The notes under the pieces were generated by a model. It had not been told where the DNA came from. It ran no database searches and saw nothing but the letters and a program-made list of their open reading frames with translations. A stretch of DNA of 58,017 nucleotides from Alphaproteobacteria bacterium (GTDB taxonomy: Bacteria > Pseudomonadota > Alphaproteobacteria > Reyranellales > Reyranellaceae), in NCBI GenBank assembly GCA_016870115.1, contig VGCH01000019.1:1-58017 (forward strand), given 5' to 3'. The position numbers and the translations under genes are program-made. Shown here in pieces: positions 1-6,901 of this stretch (position 1 is the first letter of the stretch; every line of letters starts with the position of its first letter).

Positions 1-86
1 TCGCTCGGACGGCGAACTCGGTGTCACAGATTTCTGTCTCATCTCGTTCCCCTCAGGTTAACGATGAGCCGGAAATCCTCTCTTCC

Positions 87-1310
87 TCAAGACGTCAAAT
101 CTGTATCAGTGCTCCTGACGCCGGACACCTTGCGTTCGCTCGTCCTCAGCACATCCAGATGGTCAGCCCACTGCTGCATCATCGCCTTGCGCTCCTCCAG
201 GTACTGGCTGCGATGGTAGGCCGCCCTCACGGCATTCCGCTCTACATGGGCGAGCTGCCGCTCGATCACGTCCGGCCGGTAGCCCATCTCGTTGAGCGCC
301 GTCGAGGCCAGCGCCCGGAAGCCGTGACCCGTCATGCGACCGTGGTAGCCCATGCGGTAGAGCGCAAAGAGCACCGTATTCTTGCTCATGGGCGTAGTGG
401 GCGCGCGTCCGGCGAAGACCCACGGCCACTTCCCGTTCATGTCCTGAAGGCTCCTGAAGGCCGCCACCGCCTGCTGGGACAAAGGAACATGATGCGGGGC
501 CTTGGTCTTCATACGCTCTGCCGGAATCGTCCATTCCGCCCGGTCTAGGTCCAGTTCCGCCCAGGTCGCGCCACGTAGCTCGTTGGTCCTGACGAAGGTC
601 AGCGCCAGCAGGCGCAGCGCCAGCTTCGTCTGCACCTCGCCCTCGTACTCTTCGATCTTGCGCAGGAAGGCCGGCAGCTCGGTCGCCGGCAGGGCAGCCA
701 TGTGCTGCGGCTTCGGCCGGGCTTTCAACGCACCGCGTAGATCGGCGGCCGGGTCGCGCTCGCACCGCCCGGTGGCGATGCCGTACCGAAAGACCTGGCC
801 GCAGGCCCTGGCGACCTTGTGGGCCGTCTCCACGGTCCCGCGCGCCTCGATCTTGCGCAGCACAGCCAGCAACTCGGGGGCCGTCACGTCGGCAATGGGG
901 GTGCGGCCGATGTCCGGGAACACATACGTCTCGAATCGGGTCGTGGTGTCGCCGTGATAGACGGCTGCCCACTTGGGCTTCACGTTCTCCAGCCACTCCT
1001 TGGCGACGGTCGCGAAGGTGTTGGCCCCCGCCTCCTGCACCGCCCGTTTCTCCTGCCGCCGCACGGCTGACGGATCGATCCCCTTGGCCACCAGCTTGCG
1101 GGCATCGTCTCGCGCCTCCCGTGCCTGCCTCAACGTCACGTCGGGGTAAATCCCCAGCGACAGCAGCTTCTCCTTGCCCGCGAAGGCGTAGCGGTAGCGC
1201 CACCACTTGCCGCCCGACGGTGCGAGCAACAGGAACAGCCCGCGCTCGTCCATGAGCTTGGTCGGCTTGGCGGGCGGCTTGGTCTTGCGAATCAGGGTGT
1301 CAGTGAGCAC
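87..1310 (-). CDS. P4-type tyrosine recombinase/integrase
   Basis: Site-specific recombinase of the P4 integrase family, expected to integrate and excise a genomic island at a tRNA 3' end. The 407-residue product has the N-terminal DUF4102 arm-binding domain (about residues 1-90, beginning VLTDTLIRKTKPPAK) and a C-terminal catalytic domain. Catalytic residues are visible: the first Arg in FVRTNELRG, HGFR with His329 and Arg332, a second His near 355, and nucleophile Tyr365 in RAAYHR. The GTG start at 1310 is preferred because GGAG lies about 10 nt upstream and it fits family N-termini; the frame stays open further upstream to 1412. The gene sits 161 bp from the 3' end of tRNA-Sec, the classical arrangement for an island inserted in selC. 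It appears intact. Confidence 0.93.
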   Translation of the reverse strand: MLTDTLIRKTKPPAKPTKLMDERGLFLLLAPSGGKWWRYRYAFAGKEKLLSLGIYPDVTLRQAREARDDARKLVAKGIDPSAVRRQEKRAVQEAGANTFATVAKEWLENVKPKWAAVYHGDTTTRFETYVFPDIGRTPIADVTAPELLAVLRKIEARGTVETAHKVARACGQVFRYGIATGRCERDPAADLRGALKARPKPQHMAALPATELPAFLRKIEEYEGEVQTKLALRLLALTFVRTNELRGATWAELDLDRAEWTIPAERMKTKAPHHVPLSQQAVAAFRSLQDMNGKWPWVFAGRAPTTPMSKNTVLFALYRMGYHGRMTGHGFRALASTALNEMGYRPDVIERQLAHVERNAVRAAYHRSQYLEERKAMMQQWADHLDVLRTSERKVSGVRSTDTDLTS

Positions 1311-1311
1311 T

Positions 1312-1373
1312 GGGGTAACTCTCCGGGGGCTACAAAAGTTACCCCGAAAGTTACCCCGGAAAGTGGGGTAACT
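1312..1373. repeat. Four copies of 9-bp motif AGTTACCCC upstream of integrase
   Basis: The 9-mer AGTTACCCC occurs at 1337-1345 and 1349-1357, and its exact reverse complement at 1312-1320 and 1365-1373. The second and fourth copies form a perfect inverted repeat with a 7-nt spacer. The cluster lies between the integrase start codon and the tRNA-Sec 3' end. It could be arm-type integrase binding sites or an operator for control of int. The repeats are read directly; the role is inferred. Confidence 0.7.
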
Positions 1374-1418
1374 TCCAGTGGACGACCAAAGACTGTCCCG
1401 GATGCCAGACACATGAAA

Positions 1419-1447
1419 AGCCCGAAATTTCGGTCTGTTTCGGGCTT
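1419..1447 (-). terminator. Rho-independent terminator after tRNA-Sec
   Basis: A perfect 10-bp stem, AAGCCCGAAA (1419-1428) with TTTCGGGCTT (1438-1447), encloses a 9-nt loop. On the minus strand it follows the tRNA-Sec 3' end by about 25 nt and is trailed by a short T-containing run. This fits termination of selC transcription before the integrase. Confidence 0.6.
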
Positions 1448-1471
1448 CTTCAGACGGTGTTGGATGTGAAT

Positions 1472-1567
1472 TGGCGGAGGAGAGCGGGAGTCGAACCCAC
1501 CCAGAGCCGGCGAACGACCCTCTCTGGCTTTGAAGGCCAGCCGGCCCACCGGGACCGATTCCCCTCC
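1472..1567 (-). tRNA. selC: tRNA-Sec (anticodon TCA)
   Basis: Selenocysteine tRNA that reads UGA. Reading the minus strand, the gene starts GGAGGGGA and ends TCTCCTCC-G-CCA, giving the 8-bp acceptor stem typical of tRNA-Sec, with CCA encoded. The T-stem GTGGG/CCCGC encloses TTCGACT. The anticodon loop CTTCAAA carries TCA inside a stem of GGC/GCC type, and a long variable arm lies between anticodon and T arms. Total length is 96 nt, longer than ordinary tRNAs and normal for bacterial tRNA-Sec. Its 3' end faces the integrase at 87-1310. SelA and SelB are encoded nearby. Confidence 0.95.
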
Positions 1568-2851: not shown

Positions 2852-4750
2852 TCACGGCTTTGCCACCGGCCCGAATTGTTCACGCTTCTGGGGCACGATG
2901 CGTCGCAGGTCCCCATCGCGTTTGGCGATCCCCAGCCGGTCGAAGAACTCCAGAATCTGGATCGCGACCTTGCGGCCATTGTCGAGACGATCGCGGAACT
3001 GCGCGGCGGTGAAGCCCTCGCCCAGCGCCTCGGCGATGCCGATCATCTCGGCCACGGTCGGCCGCAGGAAGTACTGGTCGGTGGCGATCTCGACCACACG
3101 CCCGAGCTTGGCGACTCGGCGCATCAGTCGGCGCATTTCAGGCTCGGGCACACCATGCGCCTGGGCAAAGTCGCGCACCCGGGGTGGCCGGAAGCGGTCG
3201 GCAACCAGCGCCGCCTGCACCCTCTTCCACAGCGCCTCGTCGCGCGCGCCGAGTGTCAGCGAGTGACCGGGCAGGCGCACATACGGGCCGTCGACCGCGA
3301 CCGTGCGTGCCTTCACCTCGCGGTCGAGCAGGGTCTTGAAGATGTCGGCGGTCCAGCGCCGCGCCATCGCCACCCGCAGCCGCTCCGGCTGCAGGCCGGG
3401 CGAGTCGGGGCTGGTCTCGTGCCAGTTCTTGAGGGCCGCCAGCAGATCGGCCTGGGCCGTGGCGAGGGTTTCCGCCGCGAAGCCGAAACCGCCCAGCGCC
3501 TGACCGCCCGCCTCGTCGAGAAACCGCGCGACCTCCTCGGGTCTGAGGTTGCGCGCGACGCCGAAGCGCGCGAGGTCGAGATGGCCTTGCTCCAGCGACA
3601 GGAGGCTCGCCACCGCCATGTCGTCGGGCTCGGCGAGCGCGTCCAGCTCGGCCAGCCGGCGCGGCGTGCGCCGGTTGCGCGGCGGACCGAACGGATCGAT
3701 CACCGCCGCGCCGGCGATCGTGCGCGTCGCCGACGGATCGCGCAGGATCGCGCGGTCATGGGCGAGCGCGCCGACCTTCTCCTCCAGCACGAGCTGGGCG
3801 CGCATCGTCTCGCCGGGTGCCAGCTTGTCGCCATCGAGCAGGGCCACGCGCCCCATGACATGGGCAGCACCAAGATGGACATGCACCGGCGACCAATGGC
3901 GCAACGGCGCCTTTTCGCTGCGCAGCAAGGTCAGGCCGACATCGATGCGGTCGGTGGGGCGGTGCAGCTCGGGCGCCACGATCCAGTCGCCGCGCCGTAC
4001 CGACTGTCGCTCGAGACGGGCGCCCACCAGGTTGAGTGCGCAGCGCTCGCCGGCGCGCCCCGCCTCGGCCGGGCGGTTCTGGGCGTGGATCGCGCGCACG
4101 CGGGCCTCGATGCCCGACGGGGTGAGCAGCACGCGATCATCGACCGCGAAGCGGCCGGCATGGACGGTGCCGGTCACCACAACGCCGGCGCCAGCCAAGA
4201 CGAAACAGCGATCGACCGCGAGTCGTGCGAACCCCGCGACACCGCGCCGACTCTCGCCCAGCGCCGGCAGCCGGGCCTTCAGCTCGGCGATGCCCTGGCC
4301 GGTGAGCGAGGAGACCGGCAGGATCTCCGCGCCCTTGAGCGACGTCGCGTCCAGCAGCGTCTCGATCTCGGCCATGCGCTCGAGCTGCTCGTCCTCGCTC
4401 GCCAGATCGGCCTTGGTGAGCGCCACCAACCCACGATCCAGCCCCAGCAGGTCGAGGATCTGCAGATGCTCGACGGTCTGGGGCTTGATGCCCTCGGCCG
4501 CCGACACCACCAGGAGGGCCGCATCGATGCCGGTAGCACCGGCCAGCATGTTGTGCACGAAGCGCTCGTGGCCGGGCACGTCGACGAAGCCGAGTTGGCG
4601 CCCGTCGCCGAGGTCGGAATAGGCGTAGCCGAGATCGATGGTGATGCCGCGCGCCTTCTCCTCTTTCAGGCGGTCGGCGTCGACACCGGTCAGCACCTTC
4701 ACCAGCGCCGTCTTGCCATGGTCGATATGGCCCGCGGTGCCGACGATCAT
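2852..4750 (-). CDS. selB: Selenocysteine-specific elongation factor SelB
   Basis: SelB is a GTPase that brings Sec-tRNA(Sec) to the ribosome at UGA codons marked by a SECIS hairpin. The 632-residue protein starts [16 protein letters not shown]. GTPase motifs are visible: P-loop GHIDHGKT (7-14), switch II DVPGHE (57-62) and TKAD (112-115). EF-Tu-like domains II and III follow, and the C-terminal third is the Lys/Arg-rich winged-helix region that binds SECIS RNA. Length matches bacterial SelB. The start ATG at 4750 overlaps the stop of the upstream Sel1-repeat gene (ATGA), implying translational coupling. The UGA-containing fdoG in this window is its obvious client. Confidence 0.96.

Positions 4751-5529: not shown

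Positions 5530-6901
<1,372 letters not shown>

Follow-up and report, generated by a model that had tools for sequence, protein, structure and literature searches.

In the selC-intL locus of E. coli EDL933 and in PAI I of E. coli 536, which is located at selC, the tRNA and integrase genes lie on the same strand with the tRNA first (STI shape), as they do at the locus described here. Both differ from it in host and cargo, and an integrase gene tail replaced by an insertion sequence (IS) belongs to the present locus. Panis et al. 2010 predicted that tRNA-integrase pairs arranged in this way, including SelC, are autoregulated, and measured a 4-fold repression of the intL promoter by IntL (excerpt of PMC2951348). 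Integrase I of PAI I likewise represses its own promoter (excerpt of PMC7286903). Negative autoregulation is also described for IntS of ICEMlSym R7A, which has five P/arm-type motifs of consensus TGKTGGTATC, the complement of which contains GATACC; this is a 502-kb conjugative element in Mesorhizobium, unlike the element described here (excerpt of PMC11963761). The satellite phage P4 integrates at a leucine tRNA, whereas the present element is at selC (excerpt of PMC7286903). In the P4 record (NC_001609.1) one annotated attP arm repeat covers the int start and a 12-nt pair lies upstream of it, followed by the core and by a 12-nt pair beyond.

The window, meaning the whole stretch of 58,017 nucleotides that was analysed, is contig C19 of a genome of 3.56 Mb in 59 contigs, which is at the small end of the family range of 3.5–9.8 Mb. 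On sequence grounds it very probably carries the attL of an integrative element of P4 type that entered selC at its 3' end, with AGTTACCCC sites that would be bound by the arm domain of the integrase, the element being damaged by an IS and probably immobile. This reading draws on the integrase class, the att copies at both ends, the empty sites in relatives, the array geometry with its match to P4, and an association between integrase residues and arm motif. Coordinates of the features are given in Table 1.

The longest ORF of the integrase (87–1412, minus) is on the same strand as the tRNA-Sec gene, in which the CCA is encoded. Arm-DNA-bind_3, Phage_int_M and Phage_integrase domains are present in this ORF, all above the Pfam cut-offs, and R241, H329, R332, H355 and Y365, presumably the conserved catalytic residues of a tyrosine integrase, are invariant in a 7-sequence alignment. 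By its sequence the protein is a P4-type, or IntSXT-group (DUF4102), tyrosine integrase. DUF4102 integrases have been placed within the IntSXT subgroup (excerpt of PMC8138268). The start is most likely the GTG at 1308–1310, because this codon aligns with the ATG or GTG start of the six compared homologues, and the 9-mers therefore lie upstream of the integrase gene. The gene does not abut the tRNA, as had been thought at first; 161 bp separate the tRNA end from the GTG. In this interval, from selC to the integrase gene, a sigma-70 scan found no promoter-like site. The terminator-like hairpin just 3' of the tRNA, which is absent from the output of the terminator scan, its loop being above the limit of that scan, may keep tRNA and integrase transcription apart. 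Beyond selC, the contig carries a TPR protein gene, selB, selA and fdhE.

Table 1. Features of the selC-integrase locus on contig C19 and of the candidate far end on contig C32 (positions without a contig name are those of the window).
Feature	Position	Strand	Evidence or remark
Left end of IS3-family element (TGTCCGG...); C19 ends in the IS	1..127	-	Repeat copies on other contigs
Last ~12 residues of integrase frame, encoded by inserted IS	87..127	-	Alignment with homologues; IS boundary
P4-type (DUF4102/Arm-DNA-bind_3) integrase, own coding sequence, GTG start	128..1310	-	Domains, homologue alignment
Codons of integrase residues 47–49 (E47, K48, L49)	1164..1172	-	Residues 47 and 49 track arm motif in family
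Arm-type site D (AGTTACCCC), directly before start codon, likely also operator	1312..1320	-	Corresponds to P4 attP arm repeat 3915–3926 over int start
Arm-type site C (AGTTACCCC), 12 nt from B	1337..1345	+	Corresponds to P4 attP arm repeat 3942–3953
Arm-type site B (AGTTACCCC)	1349..1357	+	Corresponds to P4 attP arm repeat 3954–3965
Arm-type site A (AGTTACCCC)	1365..1373	-	Exact match; own-motif match of at least 8/9 upstream of site B in 27/60 arrays
Hairpin AAGCCCGAAA/TTTCGGGCTT, terminator-like, inside element, just 3' of tRNA	1418..1447	-	Inverted-repeat scan; function presumed
attL core, tRNA-Sec 3' end through CCA + AT	1470..1490	-	Common to C32 att copies, which carry small indels
tRNA-Sec (selC), target gene; 3' end is the attachment core	1472..1567	-	ARAGORN; 3'-end copies at attR, own genome and relatives
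Further att copy	C32:200-218		One full and one cut arm site
Own attR, tRNA-Sec 3' end without 2 nt	C32:5817-5833		Arm pair (two direct 9-mers) at 5741-5761, ~56 nt off

The preliminary description had reported four copies of a 9-mer in two orientations between the start codon and the tRNA, and exact matches to AGTTACCCC are indeed found at the four sites A to D. These are the only exact copies in the whole window and all lie inside 62 bp, against a chance expectation of about 0.4 copies for the window (2 x 58017 / 4^9). With up to one mismatch, 7 copies are found in the window and 3.06 are expected by the chance figure of the search tool. The inverted repeat among the 9-mers, described earlier as a perfect one of 25 bp, in fact consists of two perfect 10-bp arms with a 7-nt spacer.

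The array resembles that of P4, in which the upstream 12-nt pair is also opposite in orientation to the repeat at the start. Sites B and C are 12 apart in both. The distance from C to D is 26 in P4 and 27 in the window when both are placed in a common 9-base frame, the raw starts being 27 apart for the P4 12-mers and 25 for the window 9-mers. Core to B is ~113 in P4 and ~115 in the window, and the far pair is ~54 from the core in P4 and ~56 on contig C32. Arm sites in the P4 attP arrangement are thus present on both sides of the core, as the C19 array and the C32 pair. The differences are in the motif, which is (A/G)TGCCCCC with R49 in P4 and TTACCCC with L49 in the window, in site A, for which P4 has no annotated equivalent, and in one further annotated arm repeat that P4 has inside int. 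The reading of the 9-mers as arm-type sites is as firm as sequence allows. In the proposed mechanism, the catalytic domain of the integrase would cut and rejoin at the tRNA-Sec 3' end, the N-terminal arm domain would bind four AGTTACCCC sites on the side of the core that holds the integrase gene and two on the opposite side, and the integrase would bridge arms to core in an intasome. Site D is adjacent to the start codon and half of the interval from the tRNA to the integrase gene is taken up by the array, so that repression of the integrase gene by its own bound product is also expected. Arm sites and self-regulating operator had been offered as alternatives; the sites probably serve as both, as measured for comparable integrases (excerpts of PMC2951348 and PMC11963761).

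Similar arrays are found across P4-type integrases. A scan across named genomes gave 554 loci, of which the best 80 (47–84% identical) were kept; most of these adjoin tRNAs (Sec, Cys, Leu, Ser, Met, Ala and others) or tmRNA. A total of 86 upstream regions, made up of 78 of the 80 (two were too short), the window, six family relatives and contig C46, were scored for the self-similarity of three sites at the array geometry, with no motif given beforehand. Against 1720 dinucleotide shuffles, 60 of the 86 integrase genes exceed the 99th percentile, about 1 being expected by chance, and 26 do not. The B–C spacing is 12 in 50 of the 60 arrays (the choice being limited to 11–13) and the C–D spacing is 27 or 28 in 46 (placement being free over 26 values). 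Site A, which is outside the scoring, matches the motif of its own locus at 6.9/9 and those of other loci at 5.8/9 (Wilcoxon p 1.7e-7, uncorrected for kinship). Upstream of 760 at locus L182, the intA gene of CP4-57 in E. coli K-12, AGGCCCA occurs twice with a 12-nt spacing and once more, inverted, ahead of the start, which looks like the same array with a different motif. The genome under study has a second P4-type integrase, 46–48% identical, on contig C46 (9282-10776; L043) beside tRNA-Thr. Its array has the motif GATACCCG in the same kind of geometry, and its 3' end nearly touches an IS3-type right end.

The arm motif is associated with residues of the arm domain. In a discovery set of 55 classifiable sequences, P4 included (its sites taken from the annotated repeats of the record, the annotated int start being upstream of site D), the whole protein was scanned against A or G at motif position 4. 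Residue 49 ranks first, being R in 16/16 G-types and in 0/39 A-types (p 3e-14; the lowest p in 30 label shuffles is 8e-5); counted by residue, G goes with R49 in 16/16 and with other residues in 0/40. The top ten rows are all within residues 18–49, in the arm domain. E at residue 28 is second (16/16 G-types, 2/39 A-types), but is weaker than R49, with ~5/6 tree pairs agreeing and one without a difference; several L49 types among the test loci described below carry E28. The window, which is part of the discovery set, has E47 with C and L49 with A.

The test set comprised 89 further loci: 19 copies from the direct integrase search (17 off selC and 2 at selC), 30 loci, and 40 more among the matches listed. 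Two truncated copies in G006 were left out, and the 40 extra places were taken in list order with incomplete starts skipped. In the N-terminal part that was compared, no test sequence is at least 95% identical to another or to the discovery set. A usable start is present in 88, with an array in 36 and, in the other 52, no array above the 99th percentile of shuffles. For R49 alone, the rule fixed before the test loci were examined, G is found in 5/6 against 5/30 (Fisher p 0.0035). With K49 included, a reading settled with both sets in view, R or K at residue 49 goes with G in 8/9 and other residues in 2/27 (p 1.3e-5). The motif anchor is blind to position 7, where G accompanies R47 in 10/11 and other residues in 0/25 (p 4e-8), an association seen in the discovery table and not fixed beforehand; E47 goes with C in 18/18 and Q47 with A in 5/6, these two readings also having been settled with both sets in view. 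The rule broadly held in the 36 further arrays, with four exceptions (L253, L254, L188 and L193); L107 is an exception in the discovery set.

A structure model built from the 7-sequence alignment is poor overall (mean pLDDT 50) and was used for the arm domain only, where block means are 80–89 up to residue 80 and 71 for residues 81–90. It has arm-domain strands at 25–29 and 46–54, and with the latter, residues 47 and 49 should share a face of one strand. Solved relatives of the arm domain are 3ju0 and 3jtz. It is likely that the arm domain reads its sites by a two-position code from one beta strand, in which residue 47 specifies position 7 (E:C, R:G, Q:A) and residue 49 specifies position 4 (R/K:G; L, T, M, V:A). 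Specificity would then switch frequently, gene and all sites together, and the arm sites, and from these the att ends, would be predictable from the integrase. It is rather doubtful that the association instead reflects shared descent or the swapping of arm-domain cassettes with no direct reading of bases. The same pattern is expected if arm domains are exchanged along with their sites, and the motif label is as scattered on the core-domain tree as shuffled labels are. Such scatter, however, opposes simple shared descent: on the tree of the other domains the motif and R49 need 14 changes each, and 6/6 independent pairs on well-supported branches are concordant for residue 49. With ten full-length test rows added to the tree, G7 and R47 need 6 changes each, and 3/3 supported pairs agree, too few for significance. 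R–G and Q–A are usual residue–base contacts, which the identities found here fit, and the location of residues 47 and 49 on one predicted strand also argues for direct reading. The residue code is the new and unexpected part of this analysis, and the island boundary itself is of a known kind. In searches of an open-access library, no paper among those listed names an arm-domain residue code in its title or abstract opening; novelty beyond this scope is unproven.

The integrase gene had been taken to be intact. Window positions 1–127, however, are repeated elsewhere in the genome: contigs C3, C34 and C6 have this sequence at their ends, and C8 has an internal copy at 98%. Similarity among the copies ends at 127, after ...CCGGACA, and the flanking DNA differs in every copy. 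A full copy of the IS in relative G057 measures ~1.5 kb and contains two transposase frames between its inverted ends. This full copy and the end of the shared sequence at 127 indicate that the last ~12 residues of the integrase are encoded by the IS. The tail that was replaced is (K/N)V(V/I)A in six aligned homologues. C19 could not be joined onward through the IS right end: there was no target duplication common to the C19 flank and the right-end flanks on C45, C46, C38, C49, C42 and C16. Unpaired IS3-type left ends (C3, C34, C6 and C19) and right ends (the same six contigs) may represent IS-driven rearrangement.

In the proposed history, the IS3-family element would have replaced the C-terminal tail of the integrase after insertion, a second element is probably present in tandem, and another repeat appears to have truncated an arm site of the first attR. 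Given the replaced tail, the tandem element and the cut arm site, the element is probably immobile now. It is unlikely that it is still mobile, with the fused tail tolerated and attL pairing with one of the C32 att copies. The catalytic domain does align with homologues over its full length, the tail that was replaced shows little conservation and the attL side has four exact arm sites, but the IS lies in the end of the gene, the first arm site at C32:200 is cut by a repeat, both C32 att cores carry indels and the second element has no integrase.

The far end of the element was located through its arm sites. When the arm pair of relative G018, with its 12-nt spacing, was searched for in the genome allowing up to 2 mismatches, the window and C32:5741-5761 were the only places to match. 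An island to the left of selC and a second tRNA-Sec 3' end had been predicted, and this copy with its arm sites is in the same genome, on contig C32. Ungapped searches of the genome for a second tRNA-Sec 3' end (27-mer with 3 mismatches; 19-mer with 2) found selC only, because both att copies on C32 differ from the attL core by small indels. The 5.6 kb between these copies contains SDR-like, DCC1-like and photolyase-related (DPRP) genes and a transposase, with no integrase match, and has a G+C of 0.597 against 0.693 in the flank. The second att copy suggests that there are probably two elements, which would be arranged in tandem. Positions 1–127 of C32 are the end of another repeat, which is more abundant: the genome has 20 further matches to it, several of them at contig ends. 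This repeat cuts into the first arm site at C32:200. Joining the start of C32, which lies in this repeat, to another contig failed.

Beyond the att site, the C32 flank carries orf161, orf127, fdhD and mobB. Relatives of orf161 follow selC in G014, G028 and G037, and relatives of fdhD do so in G008 and G039. These five genomes have no integrase copy among the matches listed in the direct search and represent empty sites, so that the comparison with relatives lacking the island, as proposed in the preliminary description, places C32-flank genes next after selC. This indicates that selC and the fdhD region were neighbours before the insertion. The same set of flank genes lies beyond the element in G018 and G011. 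The link between C19 and C32, separate contigs in the assembly, is thus suggested by the att copies and synteny. It is very unlikely that the C32 attR belongs to an unrelated element elsewhere and that the island of the window has no surviving right end: no sequence joins C19 to C32, both of which start in repeats, but the genome has a single selC match and the C32 flank is a conserved neighbour of selC.

A match to the selC region is present in 72 of the 75 family genomes. At 30 selC loci examined (the present one and 29 relatives), integrase matches lie beside selC in 9 relatives, L021 having pieces only. The direct integrase search of the 75 genomes (E <= 1e-60) listed 33 copies; among these, all 13 that are at least 68% identical adjoin selC, in 12 genomes including that of the window, and none of the 20 weaker copies (up to 48%) is beside selC. 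The start-proximal site and its partners are ATACCCCC/GTACCCCC in L033 and L026, and not GTTACCCC. In G018 the 3' end of tRNA-Sec occurs again on the selC contig, at a distance of 15.2 kb, with an identical 23-bp core; on the island side of this copy are two 9-mers with a 12-nt spacing. G052 (9.5 kb), G011 (15.4 kb) and L083 (4.6 kb) likewise have a far att copy accompanied by a 12-nt pair, and their cores have one or two small differences each. In these four cases the arm pair beside attR is of the motif type of the genome's own integrase array. The att copy of G041 on its contig C84 (L059) has no visible arm pair. Two tRNA-Sec 3'-end copies 4.1 kb apart in G063 (C18:7260 and 11346), with no integrase copy among the matches listed, are a possible integrase-less remnant. 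L011, L024 and L031 (in G051, G047 and G013), also with no integrase copy among the matches listed, have attL-like sequence after selC, which suggests that elements have been gained and lost here more than once.

It is very unlikely that the 9-mers serve the integrase gene solely as a transcriptional operator and have no arm role in recombination. Site D does touch the start codon and comparable integrases repress themselves (excerpts of PMC2951348 and PMC11963761), but the same sites occur as a 12-nt-spaced pair near attR, at the far end of the elements and away from the integrase gene, and the equivalent P4 repeats are named attP arm repeats in the P4 record.

The locus is an ordinary P4-type island boundary, for which the other end and empty sites are now available. 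The self-similar array of fixed spacing in 60 of the 86 P4-type integrase genes reaches wider than such a boundary at selC. If the residue code is confirmed, an integrase alone could suffice to locate the far end of its island; the arm-site search has already found the attR of this genome that ungapped searches with the tRNA end missed. The joint change in specificity of integrases and their sites would also become testable.
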